From positions 1 through 25,126 of IMG/VR virus record IMGVR_UViG_3300023109_000127: DNA of 25,126 bases; one strand, given 5' to 3'. The DNA is from a virus. This document shows positions 4,451 through 20,446 of the stretch, piece after piece. Both the position numbers and the translations under genes were made by a program. The notes beneath the pieces were generated by a model. That model worked only from the letters and a program-made list of their open reading frames with translations. It did not search any database and had not been told where the DNA came from. Each line of letters begins with the position of its first letter. The first letter of the stretch is position 1.

Positions 4451-6388
4451 ATGCCAATCCAAACAATTACTACAAACGACCAGTTTAGCGACTGGTTTAA
4501 TGTGACAAACGAACTTGTCACAACCGTTAATGCACTTGACACTGCTGTTGGTGATAGAGGACTACTAACAACCAACGCAAGCGTAATCGTAAGTGCGATT
4601 AACGAAATTGCCGGTCAAACAATCGACCAAGTTCAGAACCCAACACTCGCAGGTTCACAATATGTGAAAATTCCTTCGGGTCCAACTTCTGCCCGACCAG
4701 CCGATGCTAAACAGGGTATGATTAGATACAACACCGATTTGGATAGATATGAATCCTGGAACGGTGCTGACGATTATGGTCAACTAACATCAATCGCAGT
4801 GAATGCGGTTGTTGCATCTGGTACATCTTTCCCAACTATCGTTCTCGGTCCTGGCGGTGAAGAAACTGCGGCGACTACTGTTGTACATGCTAAAGTAGAC
4901 ACTGCAACTCCAAACGCAGTTGGTACTGGCTACACAGTCAACGATATCTTGACCCTCGACCTTGGAACTGGTACAGAAGCAACTGTAACTGTTACAGCAA
5001 TTGGTGCTTCTGGTGAAGTATCTACAGTAAGTATCAACTCAGCAGGCGATTATACCGCATTTACAAGTGGCGTTACTGGCATCTCAGTCACTGGTGGAAC
5101 AGGTACAGGCGCTACATTCGATGTTGATGTTTCTGTTCTTAGCGTAACAATTTCTACTCCAGGTGAAGGATATAACTCTGCTCCCACAGTAACACTTGAT
5201 GGCACAGGTCTAACACAGACTGGTGTTGCCACGATTGGTGGAACTGGTTCATGGGGCGCACTTGGTGGAACCGATAACCTTGACCAGTTTAATATTTCAT
5301 CCGATGGTGCTATCACAGTAGATAACTCTGGCACTGCAAACGGAATTCGAATTAACCAGACAGGCAATAGTTCTGCATCAACATCTACTGGTGGTGCTTT
5401 GCTTATCAATAACTCTTCAAATACTGGTGCGGGTATCACAGTATACTCAAACGCTGGTTCAGAAGCAAATGGTCACTTGTTACAAGTTCGTGCAAATAAT
5501 AGCACATTCGATAAACACGGCATCTTCCTAGATTATGCTGGTACTACTTCTGCACTAAACATTATTGCTCGTAGAGGTCAATCAAACACTGTATACAGTG
5601 GTGGTAATGCTAACGTAGCAATGAACGTGACTTCATACAACAAAGACATCTCTGCACTATGGATTCGTGGTAATGAAGAGGATTCAGGTACAATTAAGAT
5701 TACTCACACAGGACAAGGTTCTGGTGGTGTAGCGTCAGATGCCGTTGCGGCAGGTCTTTCTATTGCAATGAACATGTCAGACGACACATTGCTCGGTACC
5801 TCAGGTCTTTCTGGAGTAACTAAATCTGCGGCTAAAGGCTTCTTTATTGACTATGGTTTGTCAACTGGTAAGCCATTCCAGATTGTTGGTTACACTGATA
5901 TTACTGGAACTCCTGTTAAGCGTGAACTATATAATCTTGATAATCAAGGTCGCTTGACACTACCGCTACAACCATTTGCTCGTACATATGCAACTAATAC
6001 TTCAATCACTGCTGGTTCAGGTTCACTAATAAATTGGGGATTCATTGACAACAACGGTGATACACCATTCACACACAGCAACGGTCAGATTTTCTTACCT
6101 ACTGATGGATGGTATAATATTAACATCAATGTTATTTCAGCATCATCTACGGCGGGTGATTACCTAGATGTTCGTCTACTAAGAAACACATTAAACTCAA
6201 GTGGTGGATTTATTGGAACAGGTCGTGGCTCAACTGGTGGCGGAACACAAGCAGGTGCAAATTTCTCAACTACAGCATTCTTTGCTGGTGGGCAATTCCT
6301 TGCTGTTGAATTGTTTGATGGTACTATGAATACCACAAGCACATCAACTCAGCCTTATGTAAACATGTCAATCAACTTGATGGCGTAA
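4451..6388 (+). CDS. Tail fibre/adhesin with anchor module and C1q-like tip
   Basis: This 645-residue protein has a modular fibre layout. Residues 1-53 (DWFNVTNELVTTVN...VGDRGLL...IVSAINEI) match the N-terminal module of the genes at 6435 and 11360 and are probably the virion anchor. Residues 73-101 carry KIPSGPTSARP...GMIRYNTDLDRYE, a motif common in marine phage fibres. Residues 155-262 are Gly/Thr-rich with two GxGY units (VGTGYTVNDILTLDLGTGT and GEGYNSAPTVTLDGTG). The C-terminal ~130 residues resemble a C1q/TNF-like jelly roll (NGQIFLPTDGWYNININV, then LRNTLNSSGG and FFAGGQFLAVELFDGT), a fold often found as a trimeric receptor-binding tip. The ribosome site is GGAAG followed by AGAAAGAG. 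The domain calls are by eye. Confidence 0.8.
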   Translation: MPIQTITTNDQFSDWFNVTNELVTTVNALDTAVGDRGLLTTNASVIVSAINEIAGQTIDQVQNPTLAGSQYVKIPSGPTSARPADAKQGMIRYNTDLDRYESWNGADDYGQLTSIAVNAVVASGTSFPTIVLGPGGEETAATTVVHAKVDTATPNAVGTGYTVNDILTLDLGTGTEATVTVTAIGASGEVSTVSINSAGDYTAFTSGVTGISVTGGTGTGATFDVDVSVLSVTISTPGEGYNSAPTVTLDGTGLTQTGVATIGGTGSWGALGGTDNLDQFNISSDGAITVDNSGTANGIRINQTGNSSASTSTGGALLINNSSNTGAGITVYSNAGSEANGHLLQVRANNSTFDKHGIFLDYAGTTSALNIIARRGQSNTVYSGGNANVAMNVTSYNKDISALWIRGNEEDSGTIKITHTGQGSGGVASDAVAAGLSIAMNMSDDTLLGTSGLSGVTKSAAKGFFIDYGLSTGKPFQIVGYTDITGTPVKRELYNLDNQGRLTLPLQPFARTYATNTSITAGSGSLINWGFIDNNGDTPFTHSNGQIFLPTDGWYNININVISASSTAGDYLDVRLLRNTLNSSGGFIGTGRGSTGGGTQAGANFSTTAFFAGGQFLAVELFDGTMNTTSTSTQPYVNMSINLMA

Positions 6389-8610: not shown

Positions 8611-11319
8611 ATGGCAACAGTTAATTACATTGTAACTACACAACAAGGTTTTCTCCACCCAGATGGTCCATCTGGTCCTGGAGTATTGGGTGGCATTTAC
8701 TTCCTAGATGGTCAAGAGTATGACACGATTAACGCAAACAGAGGTGATACCCTTGTTTTCGATATGTCTGATGCATCTAACGCAGGACATGAATTTAGAT
8801 TTACAACAGATTCCACTGACGCATATACAGAAAAATATACCCCAGGCGTAAATATTGTAGGGTTTGCAGGTACTCCAGGTTCGAGTGTAAGTATCACTAT
8901 TCCAAGCGATGCTCCAGATGAACTTTCAGTGTATTGTGTGTCTCACGGTATTCGTATGGGATTCGATATTAATGTATCGGGTACTGGTGGTATTCAAGGC
9001 ACATACAATTATGCAGTTACAGTAGTTCCTGGCAATCTATATGGTGGCGGGTCTGGTAACGTGTACTTACTTAACGGTGGTAGAGTTTTAGACTTAGATA
9101 TCACTCGTGGTAATCGTTATGTTTTCGACCAAACAGACGCTTCTAATATTGGACACACACTTCTATTCAGATACGAATCCAATGAGGGAAGCGGACTATT
9201 CAACCTAGAATGGACTGCTGGTGTTCGCACAAATGGTGGCTCCGCTGGTGTTGATAGAATTGTCACATTCCAAGTTCCGAAGAATGCTCCAGATGATATG
9301 CTATATGTCTGTGATGCTCACGGACAAGGTATGGGTGGTGAACTATCACTCACAGGAATATTCGGTGATACTATTGAAAACCCTGCTGACTTAGTTGAAA
9401 TTGGTCAGTATAGTAATCCAACAATTACAGATGTAACATTCTCACAACAGTTTTATGATGGTGCGTTGCGCTTTAACCAAACTCTTCACAGATATGAATT
9501 TTTCTCAGAAGAAGATGGCTGGGTTCAGACAACATATGCACCTACAGTTACAAGTGTAACGGGTAGCGTTTTTGATGGTGTTATAAACTCTATCGTTATT
9601 AACGGTGGCGGTTTTGATGAGAACATGACTGTTCAGATTGTTAGCATTAACGACTTATACACACCACTTACAAATCCTATAACATTTACATATGTAGATG
9701 AATACCAACTTAATGCGACTATCGATGCAAGGGCACCATACTCACTACAAGATGGTGTTGGTAATGTATTGGAAGCAATCGCATTTAGATTGACATCAGG
9801 AATTACAAACGCAAGAGCCGTTTCTGGTGAAGTTGAAATTGACCGTGACCCAGAGTTTGGACTTGCAACTCTTACAGTTCTTGGACGCTTTAATGTAAAT
9901 ACTCTGAATAATGGCGGTACAACCGATGTTGAAAACCCAGTAATTGTTTCTGCATCTGACCCAGATGATGTGGATGCAGTAGTAACATTTGAAGTTGCTC
10001 CAAACACAATGGGTTTTGGTACCAATAGAAACTTAGCATCTGACGGAACGACTGTTGGCGGAAGACCTCTAGGTTCTACTAGTTTAGACCCCAACCCACA
10101 GAATTCAAATTTCTCTGTTTTCTTTGAATACCAAGAACCAAATCAAGGTATTTTGAAAGGTGCAGTAAACCCGTGGTCAAATGGTGGTCCGGGTCATCCA
10201 GACTACGGGCAAAACTTTGGAACAAGCGTAAGATATCCAGGTGCATTAGAAGCAGACCACGATTTAACTGTTCGTGCAACGTCTTCAACTCCAGATGGTC
10301 GTCAAACAACTAAAGATGAAACTTTCAGAATGAAGGTTGTCACAGGTTGGAAGTACATCTCCAATATCTCACATCATTATGTGATGGGGGGTTATATCGG
10401 AGCAGAGAGTTGGCGTGTTGTTCATCGCTGTGACGCAAGCACAGATACAACAGTTTCTTTAGGCGTACAACTATCAGCAAATAGTGTAACAACACCAAAC
10501 GCAAACCGTTCGGGTGCAAGATATTCTTCAGAAGCCGTCAACAGATGGTCAGGTCAGGTTATCATTCTAGGTTCAAACCGTTTTGGTGGAGTTGCAGGTG
10601 ATGCACAAGACCAAGCAACTGAGAACTACAACATGATAACTGAAACTGCATATGGACTAACAACAAATGTTATGTCAGGAAAGCGTTACGATTGTCAAGG
10701 GTTCTCGTATGACCATGCACAAAAGGGTTATGCTCAAGGTGGTTATCACCCAGATGTTGGACTGTTGAATTCAACTGATAAGATAAACTTGGCTACTGCT
10801 ACAAGAGAAACTGTTATCACAAATCCAGGTGGTTATACCTCAAGTTATGGTGGTGCATCTGTATTTGGTCCAGTATTTGGAACTATGAACCAGGCGGGAA
10901 GAAGTACCCAAACACCAGATGGTGGATTCTACTTTGCATTCTCAACAGATACTCCATATGGGGGTAACTTCCAAGACTTGATTAACGAAGGCTTGACGGG
11001 TGCTGTTGGTAAAGCACTAACAACATGGCAAGACAGAAACTACTGGTTGGGTTACAATACTGTTGACACAGTTTGGTACGGTGACCAAAGTACAACAACA
11101 TACGGCATTGCACCTTTTGTTCAGACACTAAATAATGGTGAAGGTAACTGTTCTGGTGGACTTGCTCACGGATATTCTCTAGGTGCATATAATGGTGTAC
11201 AGAACAACCACGCAGATAGAATTAACTACTCTACAGAAACTTGTGTTCGTGTTTCCTCCGCTGACACGACAGGTAACACAGGAACTTCTTCAGCCGCAGT
11301 TGGTTGGGTTGAAAGATAA
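8611..11319 (+). CDS. Fibre/virion adhesin with two cupredoxin-like domains and repeat-rich C-terminus
   Basis: This 902-residue protein lacks the anchor module of its neighbours. It opens with two tandem domains of about 120 residues, each with RG(D/N)xxxFDxxDASNxGH near the middle and C-x2-H-x3-M near the end. The candidate type-1 copper ligands are H60/C109/H112/M116 and H182/C234/H237/M241. Residues 280-300 carry YDGALRFNQTLHRYEFF, the fibre IRYNT-like motif. Residues 310-400 look IPT/TIG-like, and residues 410-465 cadherin-like (VIVSASDPDDVDAVVTFEV). From about 580 to the end is the distal domain shared with the genes at 12130 and 13858 (ISNISHHYVMGGYIGAESWR, then NNGEGNC and YNGVQNNHADRIN), possibly a beta-propeller-like repeat fold. 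Copper binding is inferred from ligand spacing only. Confidence 0.8.
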   Translation: MATVNYIVTTQQGFLHPDGPSGPGVLGGIYFLDGQEYDTINANRGDTLVFDMSDASNAGHEFRFTTDSTDAYTEKYTPGVNIVGFAGTPGSSVSITIPSDAPDELSVYCVSHGIRMGFDINVSGTGGIQGTYNYAVTVVPGNLYGGGSGNVYLLNGGRVLDLDITRGNRYVFDQTDASNIGHTLLFRYESNEGSGLFNLEWTAGVRTNGGSAGVDRIVTFQVPKNAPDDMLYVCDAHGQGMGGELSLTGIFGDTIENPADLVEIGQYSNPTITDVTFSQQFYDGALRFNQTLHRYEFFSEEDGWVQTTYAPTVTSVTGSVFDGVINSIVINGGGFDENMTVQIVSINDLYTPLTNPITFTYVDEYQLNATIDARAPYSLQDGVGNVLEAIAFRLTSGITNARAVSGEVEIDRDPEFGLATLTVLGRFNVNTLNNGGTTDVENPVIVSASDPDDVDAVVTFEVAPNTMGFGTNRNLASDGTTVGGRPLGSTSLDPNPQNSNFSVFFEYQEPNQGILKGAVNPWSNGGPGHPDYGQNFGTSVRYPGALEADHDLTVRATSSTPDGRQTTKDETFRMKVVTGWKYISNISHHYVMGGYIGAESWRVVHRCDASTDTTVSLGVQLSANSVTTPNANRSGARYSSEAVNRWSGQVIILGSNRFGGVAGDAQDQATENYNMITETAYGLTTNVMSGKRYDCQGFSYDHAQKGYAQGGYHPDVGLLNSTDKINLATATRETVITNPGGYTSSYGGASVFGPVFGTMNQAGRSTQTPDGGFYFAFSTDTPYGGNFQDLINEGLTGAVGKALTTWQDRNYWLGYNTVDTVWYGDQSTTTYGIAPFVQTLNNGEGNCSGGLAHGYSLGAYNGVQNNHADRINYSTETCVRVSSADTTGNTGTSSAAVGWVER
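10484..10511 (+). repeat. 28-nt tract identical to 13058-13085 within paralogous fibre genes
   Basis: These 28 bases, encoding most of the TTPNANRS motif, are identical to 13058-13085; 19 of the bases recur at 14801-14819. The surrounding coding sequence is clearly diverged, so the tract may reflect exchange between the paralogues as well as protein constraint. Confidence 0.7.
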
Positions 11320-11321
11320 CT

Positions 11322-11329
11322 TATAAATA
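11322..11329 (+). promoter_or_regulatory. T4-type late promoter box
   Basis: TATAAATA begins three bases after the stop codon of the cupredoxin-type fibre gene and lies 30 bases before the ATG at 11360. The extended context TTATAAATAGATG is identical to that of the late promoter at 22202. It should drive the anchor gene and the two distal fibre genes after it. Confidence 0.8.
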
Positions 11330-11359
11330 GATGAAAGAACACACAAAGGATAGATAAAG

Positions 11360-12118
11360 ATGCCAATCACAAATTTAACAAGCACTGACAGGGTTGCCGA
11401 TTGGCTTGCACGAACCAATGAGATTATTGACGAACTCAATAATGGTGTTGGTAATCGACAGGCTCTATCTACAACAGATAAGACCATTGTTGGTGCGCTT
11501 AATGAAATCGCAGGACCAGGAGCAATCGATACATTAAATCTTGCCGATGGTTCTGTAACAACCCCTAAGATTGCTGACGGCGCAGTAACTACTGCTAAGA
11601 TTGTAGACGATATCGTTCTACCAGGAACTGGATGGACTAAACTACCATCGGGCACAACTGCACAAAGACCAGCAGGTGCGCAAGAGGGTTATATTCGATA
11701 CAACACAGACTTCAATCACTACGAACAATATACAGATATTGGATGGGTACTCATTGTCGGTGCGCCAATCGCACTATCTGGCACAGGTACTATTACAGAA
11801 AGTATTAACTCACAGGTTACATTAACTGGTAGTGGATTTACAGAAGACATGAGAATTTTTGCTGTTAATCCAGACAACAACAATGTAGAAATTGTTGAGA
11901 TGGTTAACGTAAACTTTATTTCATTTACTACTGTTCAGTTTACATATCCTGCGACCGCTAACCCGATTCCCGCAAGTATTGAAAACATAGCATTCAAAGT
12001 TTTATCTGGTGCATCCAATTTGAGTAGTATCTCAGACTTTTCAATCTCAGTTGGGCGTGGTCCTACATTTGCAACCCAATCGGGTGCGGTGATTGCTGAA
12101 TTTCAACTGAACGGATAA
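11360..12118 (+). CDS. Short fibre anchor/proximal protein (split fibre, N-terminal half)
   Basis: This 252-residue protein carries the shared anchor module (residues 10-50, DRVADWLARTNEIIDELNN), two LADGxVTTxKI repeats (61-81), LPSGTTAQRP (95-104), YIRYNTDFNHYEQY (111-124) and an IPT/TIG-like domain (about 135-235). It then stops at GRGPTFATQSGAVIAEFQLNG. In the 719- and 902-residue fibres the equivalent point runs straight into a cadherin-like domain. Here that domain begins the next gene, 11 bases downstream in another frame. It therefore looks like the proximal half of a fibre whose distal half is separately encoded. The ribosome site AAGGAT lies upstream of the ATG. Confidence 0.8.
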   Translation: MPITNLTSTDRVADWLARTNEIIDELNNGVGNRQALSTTDKTIVGALNEIAGPGAIDTLNLADGSVTTPKIADGAVTTAKIVDDIVLPGTGWTKLPSGTTAQRPAGAQEGYIRYNTDFNHYEQYTDIGWVLIVGAPIALSGTGTITESINSQVTLTGSGFTEDMRIFAVNPDNNNVEIVEMVNVNFISFTTVQFTYPATANPIPASIENIAFKVLSGASNLSSISDFSISVGRGPTFATQSGAVIAEFQLNG

Positions 12119-12129
12119 GGGCTTAAATA

Positions 12130-13854
12130 ATGGCTGTCACATTTATTACAGGTAAGAATAAACCAATCAATGCGTATGATGTTGACAATACGCAGATTAC
12201 TTATTCTATTGTAAGTCAGCCTGGTTCTGACATCACTGATTTTAATAACTCTGCCACTTCAGTTTCACTGGATACTAGCACTGCAATTACTGGTGTTTCG
12301 AAAGCAATCTCAGTTTGGGCGCTACAGTCTGCCAGTGCATCTCCAATTGTCATAAGTAATATTTCACTTGTAGAAGATGGTGTTGGTACAGAACTATTGA
12401 CCGATTCCGCATTAGAAGATATTACGAATTGGACTACTGCTGGTAGTGTAACTGACAATAACGATGGTACTTTCACTTCAGATGGTACTTCTGTTAATTC
12501 ACAGATTGCTCAGGATATTGCATTAACTGCAAACAGAAAATACAAACTAAGTGTAACTGCAAGTATTCCTGTTAATACAACAATGAGACTTGAGACATAC
12601 CATTTTGATGCTACAAATGTCGGTGCAGATGGTGTATACTCACAACAAACTTTTGTAGATTTTTCAGGTTCAGGTTCTGGTGAACTAACATACGATTTTG
12701 AATTCTTTCCTATGGAATCAACTCGTGTTAGTTCTGGTTCTACTGTAGCAAGAGCATTAAACGGTGGACCAGGTTCAGCGGACTATGGCACAAACAATAG
12801 TGCAAGTAAAACATATCGTCACATTAATACTTTCGAAAATACATATCCAATAACAATTCGTGCAACTGACCAGGCAGGTGAGATTGCAGAAAGAACTTTT
12901 ACTGTTAAGGCAACTCTCCCTTGGAGACACATTAGTAACATATCACATGCATTTGTTGCTGGTGGATACTATAATGCCGAAAGTTGGAGAACAGTGAACA
13001 GATGTGATGTTAATACTGATACAACTATTGACCTAGGTGGTCTAATGGCTAACAACGGTGTAACAACACCAAACGCAAACCGTTCAGGTATGAGATATTC
13101 GGATTCATCTAATGATAGATGGACAGGTAACGCAATTTGTTACTCAACATACGCATACGATGCAAACAATCACTGTGAAAACTTTAACATGATTACTAGC
13201 ACAATGTATGGTAATGGTGCAAGACTAAACAATTCAACAAACGCTAACCAAGCATGGGCTGATGATACACGAAGAACTGGATTCTATGGTGGTAACCCTG
13301 GTGTTTGGGAAAAATTCAGTCATGTTACTATGAACAGAATTACAGAATTTTCTGGATATCAAAGTTATTCGTATCATGCCGCTTTCATTAACGAAACTGG
13401 TGGATATACATATTCTGCAACTGGTGGCAATCAGACAGTAAATGAGCGACATGCTTTCGCTACTGATACAAGAACTACAGGTGCATTTGTGACAAATGCT
13501 ACATTCCAAGGTGGTACTGGTAACCACACTAAAGCAATCTCTACATATGGATATGGACAAGATGAGGCATGGATTGTTGGTTGGAATATTGTTGCAGACA
13601 CATGTATTGTAAGACTTTCGACTGGTACCGCAGTCACTGGACCTAATCAAACAATCAATAATGGTGAAGGTAACTGTGCATCAGGACCTGTGGATTCACA
13701 CGGTTATTCTCTTGGTGGCTATAATGGTTCACCTCAAAACAATCACGCAGATAGGATGAACTATGCGGCATCTACAATCACCCGTGTATCTGCCGCGGAT
13801 TTAAGACCACACTCAGGCGCATCGTCTGGTGGTAGAATGTGGGCGGAGTTATAA
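12130..13854 (+). CDS. Distal fibre/receptor-binding protein, paralogue 1
   Basis: This 574-residue protein begins MAVTFITGKNKPINAYDVDN, a cadherin-like start equivalent to residues about 440-460 of the 902-residue fibre. Residues about 85-195 resemble a CBM4/9-like carbohydrate-binding jelly roll (ELLTDSALEDITNWTTAG, then IAQDIALTANRKYKLSVTAS). After NGGPGSADYG (211-220) and a short beta domain, residues about 265-574 form the repeat-rich distal domain (ISHAFVAGGYYNAESWR, TTPNANRSGMRYS, NNGEGNC, YNGSPQNNHADRMN, SGGRMWAEL). AAGGG precedes the ATG by nine bases. An in-frame TAA lies just before the start, so it is not made by simple readthrough from the anchor gene. A sugar-receptor role is inferred. 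Confidence 0.8.
   Translation: MAVTFITGKNKPINAYDVDNTQITYSIVSQPGSDITDFNNSATSVSLDTSTAITGVSKAISVWALQSASASPIVISNISLVEDGVGTELLTDSALEDITNWTTAGSVTDNNDGTFTSDGTSVNSQIAQDIALTANRKYKLSVTASIPVNTTMRLETYHFDATNVGADGVYSQQTFVDFSGSGSGELTYDFEFFPMESTRVSSGSTVARALNGGPGSADYGTNNSASKTYRHINTFENTYPITIRATDQAGEIAERTFTVKATLPWRHISNISHAFVAGGYYNAESWRTVNRCDVNTDTTIDLGGLMANNGVTTPNANRSGMRYSDSSNDRWTGNAICYSTYAYDANNHCENFNMITSTMYGNGARLNNSTNANQAWADDTRRTGFYGGNPGVWEKFSHVTMNRITEFSGYQSYSYHAAFINETGGYTYSATGGNQTVNERHAFATDTRTTGAFVTNATFQGGTGNHTKAISTYGYGQDEAWIVGWNIVADTCIVRLSTGTAVTGPNQTINNGEGNCASGPVDSHGYSLGGYNGSPQNNHADRMNYAASTITRVSAADLRPHSGASSGGRMWAEL
13058..13085 (+). repeat. 28-nt tract identical to 10484-10511 within paralogous fibre genes
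   Basis: This is the second copy of the identical tract encoding part of TTPNANRS. A second shared tract of 21 bases encoding the NNGEGNC motif is identical at 11131-11151 and 13657-13677. Confidence 0.7.
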
Positions 13855-13857
13855 GAC

Positions 13858-15585
13858 ATGGCTGTTACTTTCATCACAGGTACTAACAAGGCAATTAACG
13901 CATTCGATAAGGATGCGCAATCCGTTACATATACACTAAAAGACCAACCAGGAACTCAGTTTGTTACTGGTAATGCAACCTCGAATGTATCACTCTTAAA
14001 TTCAACTGTTACAGGTGTGTCTAAACTTGCAGGTGTATTTGCGGTTAATTCTTCAGGTACAATTAACGTCTATAGTGCAAGTTTAACTGATGTTACAAAT
14101 TCAACAGAATATTACACAAACACCTCTTTTGATAATGGTGTCACAGACTGGATAGCCTCAGGTGACACTGGAACACAAATCACATCGACTTTCGTTGATG
14201 GTCAAGGTGACAACTATGTTCAAATGTCTGCAAGTGGTGGACAATACCAAGGTCTTTATCAAGCACCTGCACTTACAGCAAATAGAAAATATCGCTTTAC
14301 AGTAGATGCTCAAATTCCAATCGGTGCAACTTTAAGACTTGACAGTAGACACTTTGGTGTTAATAATACTGGTGCGCCTCAAGAAGGTTTCTTTAAGGAC
14401 TTTCAAGGTGATGGTATTCGTAAGACATTAACATTTGATTTTTATCCAACAGATACAGTAACGATTGACCCTGCGGGTTTACCAAATCGTTCTATCAATG
14501 GTGGATATGGTTCTGTTGACTATGGTGTAAACAGAACTTCAAGTAATACAGACACAGCACCCAACAGAAGATACCACGACCACCCAGTTAAAGTTGAAGC
14601 GGTTGATACAGAAGGTAACACGACAGAAGCAACATTTGTAATTCGTGCAGAACTTCCATGGACACACATTGCAAATCTAACACACGGTTATGTGGCTGGT
14701 GGTTATATTGGTACCGAAAGTTGGCGTCACGTTTGTAAAATGGATTATTCAACAGATGCTTCTGTTTCACTAGGTGATAAACTAGCAGGTAATGGGGTAG
14801 CAACACCAAACGCAAACCGCTCAGGCGCTCGTTATACAGATGGTTCTACTGATATTTGGACTGGTAACGGTATCTGTTATTCTTCATATGCATATGCAGA
14901 AAGTTCTTATACAGAGAACTTCAACATGATTACTGAAACTGCATATGGTGTGAATAACCAACATAATGGTAATCACTATGGGCAACAAGGTGCGTCTGAT
15001 TATGAAAGACGTATGGGATATTCTCATGCGGGTTCATTGAACGATACATCAACTGGTACTTCTCAATGTGAAAAGTTCAATATGTCTACAACAACTCGTG
15101 TTGGTGATATTGGACAAGCAACTGCATGGGTTTATCATGGTGGTGGTTTCACACAGACCCATATGTATTTTGCACAAGCAGGTTCTGGTACAACAGACTA
15201 CTATGATTTTGCAACTGAAAGTAGGCGAGGTAATGGTTGGACAAACAATACTGAGTTTACTGGTGGTACTTCACACACGAAAGCAATTTCTATGTGGGAC
15301 AACAGAGGCTGGTTCATTGGTTGGAACACTGTTGTGAACACATATATAATCAACTTCACCACTGGTGTTATGACCCGTGCTGGTGACCAAACAACAAACA
15401 ACGGCGAAGCAAACTGTCTGACTGCTATGAACCATGGTTATACTTGTGGAGCCTACAATGGCACACAGAACAACCACTCAGATAGGTTTAACTTTTCTAA
15501 CGGAACAGTAGCGAGAAATGCCGCTGGAGATAACAAAGGCTCACCAGGCGCATCATCGGGTGTTGCAATGTGGGCTGAATTATAG
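13858..15585 (+). CDS. Distal fibre/receptor-binding protein, paralogue 2
   Basis: This 575-residue tandem paralogue starts three bases after the previous stop, with GGAG inside the end of the preceding gene as ribosome site. The order of parts is the same: a MAVTFITGTNKAINAFDKDA cadherin-like start, a CBM4/9-like domain (YYTNTSFDNGVTDWIASG, then ALTANRKYRFTVDAQIP), a GGYGSVDYG linker, and the distal domain (THGYVAGGYIGTESWR, TPNANRSGARYT, NNGEANC, YNGTQNNHSDRFN, SGVAMWAEL). The ends and the TPNANRS core are well kept, while the central surface between them is strongly diverged, as expected if receptor binding differs. Whether the two paralogues sit on one fibre or are alternatives cannot be told. 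Confidence 0.8.
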   Translation: MAVTFITGTNKAINAFDKDAQSVTYTLKDQPGTQFVTGNATSNVSLLNSTVTGVSKLAGVFAVNSSGTINVYSASLTDVTNSTEYYTNTSFDNGVTDWIASGDTGTQITSTFVDGQGDNYVQMSASGGQYQGLYQAPALTANRKYRFTVDAQIPIGATLRLDSRHFGVNNTGAPQEGFFKDFQGDGIRKTLTFDFYPTDTVTIDPAGLPNRSINGGYGSVDYGVNRTSSNTDTAPNRRYHDHPVKVEAVDTEGNTTEATFVIRAELPWTHIANLTHGYVAGGYIGTESWRHVCKMDYSTDASVSLGDKLAGNGVATPNANRSGARYTDGSTDIWTGNGICYSSYAYAESSYTENFNMITETAYGVNNQHNGNHYGQQGASDYERRMGYSHAGSLNDTSTGTSQCEKFNMSTTTRVGDIGQATAWVYHGGGFTQTHMYFAQAGSGTTDYYDFATESRRGNGWTNNTEFTGGTSHTKAISMWDNRGWFIGWNTVVNTYIINFTTGVMTRAGDQTTNNGEANCLTAMNHGYTCGAYNGTQNNHSDRFNFSNGTVARNAAGDNKGSPGASSGVAMWAEL

Positions 15586-19764: not shown

Positions 19765-20446
19765 AAAGTTTGTTGATGCGATTGAGCCTAAACTTTTTTT
19801 CCCTACAGTAATCAGAGAGTTTCAACTCAATGGTTATGAAAAGGAGAATGATGAACTTCTCAGTGTTATACTTGAGAAAGAGGCTCGTTCACGCCCAACA
19901 TACGATACGAATAGTAGCAACTGGCAGACAGATGACTTTCTTCATAGAGAGCCAGAGTTTGCTTGGTTGTGTGAAGCCGCAGTGAAGTTAGGGAAAGAGT
20001 ATGTAGAATTCATGCAATATGTGTATGATGATATTGTACTACATGAGATGTGGGCTAACGTCTATCGCAGAGAAGAAGACTTACACCTACACTCGCACCC
20101 AAACAGTTTTTTGTCTGGTGTGTATTATATGACTGATGAAAATTCAGAGATTGAATTTCAAGACCCAAGAACTGACACTCGTTCAGTGATAATGCCAGCA
20201 CAATTCAATAGTTACTTCAATGCATTTACTATGCCAATCAAGCCTAAGAAGGGTATGTTTATTTTCTTCCCATCTTGGTTGAAACATTCTGTTGTTCCTC
20301 AGCCCGCAGGGTTTCGTGTATCTATCGCTTTCAATCTAATGTTAGAAGGGAAGATTGGTAGTAGAATGGACAAGACGGGTTCTGAATTACCCAAGAATGA
20401 AAATGCTTATCGACCAGAAAGAGACTTTGATAATGACTTACTCTGA
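19757..20446 (+). CDS. 2-oxoglutarate/Fe(II) oxygenase (oxygenase 3)
   Basis: This 229-residue protein is the best match in the cassette to the TIGR02466-like phage oxygenases. It shows EMWANVYRREEDLHLHSHPN (H110, H112, H114), SFLSGVYYMTDENSEIEFQDP, then KPKKGMFIFFPSWLKHSVVP with H177, and R187 in GFRVSIAFN as candidate 2OG-binding Arg. The N-terminal half is helical and acidic. The ATG follows AAAGGTG by nine bases and lies within the end of prmB. Sequence resemblance to oxygenase 2 is clear but distant, so they are not a recent duplication. The substrate is unknown. Confidence 0.87.
   Translation: MSEKFVDAIEPKLFFPTVIREFQLNGYEKENDELLSVILEKEARSRPTYDTNSSNWQTDDFLHREPEFAWLCEAAVKLGKEYVEFMQYVYDDIVLHEMWANVYRREEDLHLHSHPNSFLSGVYYMTDENSEIEFQDPRTDTRSVIMPAQFNSYFNAFTMPIKPKKGMFIFFPSWLKHSVVPQPAGFRVSIAFNLMLEGKIGSRMDKTGSELPKNENAYRPERDFDNDLL

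Follow-up and report, generated by a model that had tools for sequence, protein, structure and literature searches.

A cupredoxin-like domain with a putative type-1-like metal site in virion proteins of marine phages

Type-1 copper proteins (plastocyanin, amicyanin, pseudoazurin, rusticyanin, and AcoP) bind their metal through a common ligand set with the order His...Cys-x2-His-xn-Met. The spacing of the loop that carries the last three ligands differs among them, being CxxHx4M in plastocyanin and CxxHxxM in amicyanin. A transition metal has also been described in phage tails: iron-binding HxH tail fibres are reported for phage T4 gp37 and Alteromonas phage R22Y and belong to the "Ferrojan/Trojan horse" hypothesis (PMC11705849), which is the nearest idea published in the open literature to the one developed here. 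In the open-access papers searched, we found no report linking a cupredoxin to a tail fiber, a baseplate, or cyanophage virions. Here, we describe a stretch of viral DNA of 25,126 nucleotides (the window), a 25-kb fragment of a T4-like marine myovirus that is a distant relative of the cyanophages and whose neck protein is ~45% identical to that of Synechococcus phages.

Two predicted cupredoxin-like domains in a putative fibre protein

An open reading frame on the + strand (8611-11319, ATG start) encodes a protein of 902 aa, in which a preliminary description had proposed two tandem cupredoxin-like domains, each with a complete type-1 copper ligand set. All eight residues that it named (H60/C109/H112/M116 and H182/C234/H237/M241) were present at those positions. 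The features are as follows, the domain limits (aa 3-124 and 130-250) being approximate:

8611..11319, + strand: putative tail fibre or virion structural protein, 902 aa, with both domains N-terminal (PHROG 30742, PHROG 1417)
8617..8982, + strand: cupredoxin-like domain 1, aa 3-124 (AlphaFold, Foldseek, family HMM)
8788..8790, + strand: putative copper ligand His60, which falls in the His column of the family alignment (His in 99% of 446 copies)
8935..8958, + strand: putative ligand loop Cys109-x2-His112-x3-Met116 of domain 1 (family Cys, His, and Met columns ~99% conserved)
8998..9360, + strand: cupredoxin-like domain 2, aa 130-250 (AlphaFold, Foldseek)
9154..9156, + strand: putative copper ligand His182 (family alignment, residue position)
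9310..9333, + strand: putative ligand loop Cys234-x2-His237-x3-Met241 of domain 2 (family alignment, loop spacing)
10306..11319, + strand: C-terminal region of the 902-aa protein (PHROG 1417)

PHROG 30742 ("tail fiber protein") covered aa 29-117, which is the cupredoxin-like domain itself, and PHROG 1417, to which no function is assigned, covered aa 566-896; no Pfam family, including PF00127 (Copper-bind), matched the 902-aa protein. Nearby genes encode a HylP-like fibre, two other proteins with PHROG 1417, and T4-type head-completion proteins. From the PHROG 30742 match and the fit of this neighbourhood, we infer that the product is a fibre protein. The PHROG 1417 region is also found at the C-terminus of the window proteins encoded at 12130-13854 and 13858-15585, and in the 902-aa protein it is presumably the distal, possibly receptor-facing part; a search for its relatives among named phages returned none. 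The three fibre-like genes that start at 8611, 12130, and 13858 (8611-15585 in all) combine this common C-terminus with differing N-terminal parts, as if the fibres had been assembled through the exchange of N-terminal modules. Elsewhere in the window, a hyaluronidase (HylP, PF07212) domain is found in a fibre-like protein (4451-6388) of this marine T4-like phage. Between 17461 and 20446, three 2OG-Fe(II) oxygenase genes (17461, 18146, and 19757) flank a methyltransferase-like gene (18826), and an endonuclease V-like ORF at 20355 comes next, overlapping the third oxygenase ORF.

Both domains were modelled with AlphaFold2, using only alignments of the window sequences and of relatives found by profile search, which gave a pLDDT of 89.5 and pTM of 0.83 for domain 1 and a pLDDT of 85.8 and pTM of 0.82 for domain 2. 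In the domain 1 model, His60 follows strand 47-51, Cys109 ends strand 104-109, His112 lies in a loop, and Met116 is in the last strand, matching the cupredoxin arrangement. The best Foldseek matches in the PDB were all or nearly all type-1 copper proteins, headed by rusticyanin, plastocyanin, AcoP, and pseudoazurin for domain 1 (E 2.7e-4) and by rusticyanin, pseudoazurin, and AcoP for domain 2 (E 1.3e-3). VIA-align matched the models to copper-protein domains, including those of nitrite reductase and small laccases, with Z up to 8.7 for domain 1 (rmsd 3.0, 102 aligned residues) and 8.8 for domain 2 (rmsd 3.0, 107 aligned residues), values that barely exceed the range VIA-align calls common, so that the consistency of the matches counts for more than the values themselves. 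The top laccase and nitrite-reductase matches are in many cases one domain of a multidomain enzyme, and these support the fold, not the copper of that domain. Both window domains are thereby predicted to have the Greek-key beta-sandwich cupredoxin fold, with His, Cys, His, and Met in order at the canonical cupredoxin positions; the fold proposed in the preliminary description is borne out by these predicted structures.

Among predicted viral structures, the best named matches were structural proteins of S-TIM5 and P-SSM2, followed by cyanophage gp9 connectors and by pithovirus and marseillevirus "beta-sandwich proteins"; none of these named matches is annotated as a copper protein. Three such beta-sandwich proteins with a matching fold (BFVD A0A481Z6J5, A0A481Z7Q7, and A0A481YWX9) come from deep-sea pithovirus-/marseillevirus-like giant viruses.

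Distribution of the family and conservation of its ligand site

A profile built from both window domains placed each of them clearly within a large family, which is abundant in marine phages and has no separate entry in Pfam, NCBIfam, or PHROG. The preliminary description had proposed looking for the ligand pattern in further phage fibres, and on a large scale this gave a positive result. Relatives in named phages, found by tblastn, came from cyanophages, Prochlorococcus/Synechococcus phages, Pelagibacter and Methylophilales phages, and marine viruses, where the genes are labelled as tail fibre, virion structural protein, gp7 or baseplate wedge, and neck protein. Three profile scans of viral_contigs each returned at least ~500-600 confirmed relatives, and a gp9 query of the same collection returned 301. 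Two sub-types were seen, with the patterns "..DQSDSSNxGHPLRFST..YYYCxxHSxMGG" and "..GHPFRIQT..LYYQCxxHxxM.G", and queries for the sub-types against 50,697 phage records gave 71 and 332 matches, every one of which is a cyanophage or another marine phage. In most of the 332, the matching protein is gp9, the baseplate wedge-tail fibre connector, which carries the domain at its C-terminus, and the protein encoded beside gp9 often carries further copies. For comparison, 2,355 records matched the T4-type neck gene of the window, 620 of them Escherichia and 314 of them Klebsiella phages, whereas the domain was found in marine records only, so that it is a marine feature and not a T4-like one. The carriers are as unrelated as gp7, gp9, neck-annotated proteins, and T7-type fibres. 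The best reading is that the module is mobile among virion proteins.

The domain was also present in 26 marine genome contigs. In one SAR11 case (L195), the domain lies close to the C-terminus of a T7-type tail fibre (PF03906), which probably derives from a virus or prophage. Within the set of SAR11 single-cell and MAG contigs L194-L206, L206 likewise looks like a T7-type tail fibre, the PF03906 test having been made on L195, and the two are probably prophage or co-sorted virus DNA. The view that the SAR11 "genome" matches are cellular genes is therefore unsupported. A SAR86 lipoprotein gene (L209) lies between ordinary bacterial enzyme genes, for a short-chain dehydrogenase and an enoyl-CoA hydratase, and seems to be cellular. 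A Rhodospirillaceae MAG contig (L207) carries a domain-bearing phage-like protein, followed by a protein whose start resembles an SU10 adaptor and whose C-terminus is of the trigger-factor type, and then by clpP and clpX; phage and host DNA seem to have been joined here during assembly.

The four ligands (HCHM) are intact in 441 of the 446 full-length copies found with a profile over all collected loci, and the remaining five read DSAY (two, the same protein at L002 and L003), DCHL, HCHL, and HCHS (one each). Among 16 representatives less than 50% pairwise identical, 15 have HCHM and one, with DSAY, has lost all four, and the most conserved columns of the domain are the four ligand columns and one Tyr. 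As the first alignment had been drawn from ligand-bearing matches, the scan was redone with a query containing no ligand residue, and the full ligand set was present in 81 of the 82 copies found, a result that excludes selection bias as the source of the conservation. The ligand Cys makes up 378 of all 383 cysteines in the domains; being alone in its domain, its invariance is not explained by a conserved disulphide. Three other copies have lost three or four ligands together: the second copy of L020, with KATV in the ligand positions, S-CREM2 gp130, which has none of the four, and S-SZBM1 gp053, which retains the first His only. A lone Cys, two His, and a Met that are mostly kept or lost together would be expected of a metal site, and not of a disulphide or of packing. 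The intact sites in the family, their persistence below 50% identity, the lone ligand Cys, and the agreement of the ligand-free query all argue that selection acts on the site as a whole. For the complete ligand set, these counts and the concerted losses make a stronger case than its being kept twice, on which the preliminary description had relied.

The two cluster C cyanophages S-B68 (a Synechococcus phage, L017) and S-CREM2 encode giant structural proteins of similar size, of 1600 aa in S-B68 and gp130 in S-CREM2, with one copy of the domain each. The site is intact in the former and lost in the latter, and the pair might serve as a natural comparison of what the site does.

The window copies differ from the rest of the family in several respects. 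A chance origin of their motif is excluded by the conservation in the family and by composition shuffles of aa 1-250, in which CxxHx2-4M occurred once in 0.2% and twice in none of 200,000. The ligand order had been likened to that of plastocyanin-type proteins, and this held (H...C-H-M); the spacing CxxHxxxM, however, is neither that of plastocyanin nor the CxxHxxM of the family. Of 244 scored copies, 242 have CxxHxxM, and CxxHxxxM is found only in the two of the window, whose Cys-Met loops are one residue longer than in all other scored copies. The Pro that usually follows the first His is absent from both (GHE and GHT). Both match the final family HMM with HCHM, as variants in loop spacing. 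In a tree of 58 rows, built on few columns, the window domains sit on long branches and do not group together, so that a tandem duplication within the gene is unsupported. The window copies are thus divergent members of the family, and their site could differ from that of the family. Because of the longer loop, the missing Pro, and the long branches, copper binding is less certain for them than for gp9.

Presence in virions and the possible role of the site

The LC-MS proteome of CsCl-purified virions of Synechococcus phage S-SZBM1 lists "S-SZBM1_206, baseplate wedge protein" (498 aa, 51.38 kDa) with 9 peptides and 24.9% coverage (PMC9146016). S-SZBM1 gp070 (498 aa, 51.35 kDa) has a C-terminal domain with an intact HPF...C-TI-H-SG-M, and its sole Cys is the ligand. 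We equated gp070 with S-SZBM1_206 by length, mass, and neighbours that match in the same way (gp053, gp054, and gp071-073); the particle therefore contains one or more proteins whose site is intact. Site-less copies are also found in virion proteomes, namely, S-SZBM1 gp053 and S-CREM2 gp130, the latter being the only domain copy found in the part of S-CREM2 that the analysis covered. The fold can therefore serve without metal.

On balance, we consider it fairly probable that the domain is a marine virion cupredoxin module that is metallated after release, with the window domains as divergent members. Modules of ~100 residues with a beta-sandwich fold would be inserted in or appended to tail fibres, gp9, and other baseplate and neck-annotated proteins, each retaining a mononuclear type-1-like metal site in which the His lies on a loop past the third strand and the Cys ends the next-to-last strand, followed by His and Met. 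The protein would be made in the apo form in the host cytoplasm, and the metal would be copper. The host cytoplasm is reducing and copper-poor; for this reason, we place copper loading after release, with the ion taken up after lysis or assembly. The bound metal would pin the ligand loops together and so stabilise the exposed face of the fibre or baseplate module, which in turn would mediate docking or adsorption. That this role is structural or adhesive, rather than one in electron transfer, is the least certain step, and we give it an even chance.

Other explanations were weighed against this one. One alternative, which we consider unlikely, is a redox-active type-1 copper, passing electrons to or from partners on the host surface or oxidants in seawater and acting as a sensor or as a trigger on adsorption. 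It would account for the full type-1 ligand set with its axial Met, the top structural matches are electron-transfer proteins, and many of the hosts are cyanobacteria, which have a rich surface and periplasmic redox system; however, no redox partner or redox domain was found in the carrier proteins, and the many unrelated structural contexts fit a general module better than an electron path. It is also improbable that the site is a static structural one for another metal or state (Zn(II), Ni(II), or Cu(I) only). The virion setting would favour a static role and apo-cupredoxins readily bind Zn and other ions, but the axial Met kept in nearly every copy would be unusual for a zinc site. Capture of copper from seawater or the host, either for display to copper-uptake receptors (a copper "Ferrojan horse") or as a copper ligand, seems quite improbable: the restriction of the domain to marine phages among named records and the published proposal for iron in phage tail fibres (PMC11705849) speak for it, but the module extends beyond fibre tips to baseplate and neck-annotated proteins. 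Least probable, by a clear measure, is a beta-sandwich spacer with ligands that are vestigial, as the preliminary description had considered, or structural without metal: site-less copies exist, two of them in virion proteins, and the window copies are divergent, but the ligand columns outconserve almost all core columns in the <50% identical representatives, the free Cys is invariant, and the mostly concerted losses point to an abandoned metal site and not to drift, so that this reading is close to excluded for the family and less firmly so for the two long-branch, longer-loop copies of the window.

Returning to copper loaded after release, the family, as read from sequence, suggests that many marine virus particles may carry copper. 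Should the sites bind copper, a type-1 copper centre would be present where the tail fibres join the baseplate in hundreds of sequenced ocean phages, the T4-like cyanophages that kill Synechococcus and Prochlorococcus among them, and copper would both influence marine phage infection and be a virion component open to measurement. More speculatively, and as a proposal that we hold only tentatively, a large share of marine tailed phages, and through gp9 most of the T4-like cyanophages among them, may have virions that are copper metalloparticles, in which type-1 centres at the baseplate-fibre junction and in the fibres act in adsorption or fibre deployment; infectivity would then depend on copper, and phages would be part of the colloidal copper pool. 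The copper reading is directly testable in cultured phages, and a domain so far labelled only "tail fiber" or "virion structural protein" would gain a function-bearing name.

Comparison with described metal-binding proteins

The predicted fold and the ligand set and order are common to the phage domain and the type-1 copper proteins, and the CxxHxxM spacing of amicyanin is also the norm of the phage family. The settings differ: type-1 copper proteins are exported electron carriers, whereas the phage domains are parts of virion structural proteins made in the cytoplasm. No significant membership of a known copper sequence family was found; PF00127 (plastocyanin/azurin) was hit by 3 of 17 family members (best E 0.019) and the NCBIfam amicyanin model TIGR02657 by 2 of 17 (best E 0.009), both below significance, and capture of a host plastocyanin is not supported by any significant plastocyanin sequence match. 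Pfam PF25489 (At5g54830-like domain) showed a weak similarity (5 of 17 members, best E 0.0037) that gives no confident assignment.

Among phage proteins, the C-terminal domain of gp9 of T4-like cyanophages (PHROG 677) belongs to the same family with its ligands intact, and the gp9 annotations checked mention neither copper nor cupredoxin. The two proteins differ in layout, gp9 having one copy at its C-terminus and the window protein two at its N-terminus, followed by an unrelated C-terminus. Marine bacterial genomes also encode the domain with its ligands intact, in the SAR86 lipoprotein and in a secreted-type protein of SAR116 (L191); unlike the window protein, these are predicted cell-surface or secreted proteins and not phage genes. 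The HxH fibres hold octahedral Fe in a trimeric HxH ladder, whereas the window protein is predicted to hold its metal in a monomeric beta-sandwich with a His-Cys-His-Met site, and the 902-aa protein contains no HxH motif (no two His two residues apart). What the two have in common is the idea of a phage fibre that binds a transition metal at sea (PMC11705849), and the copper reading, if true, would parallel the debated hypothesis of iron in phage tails.
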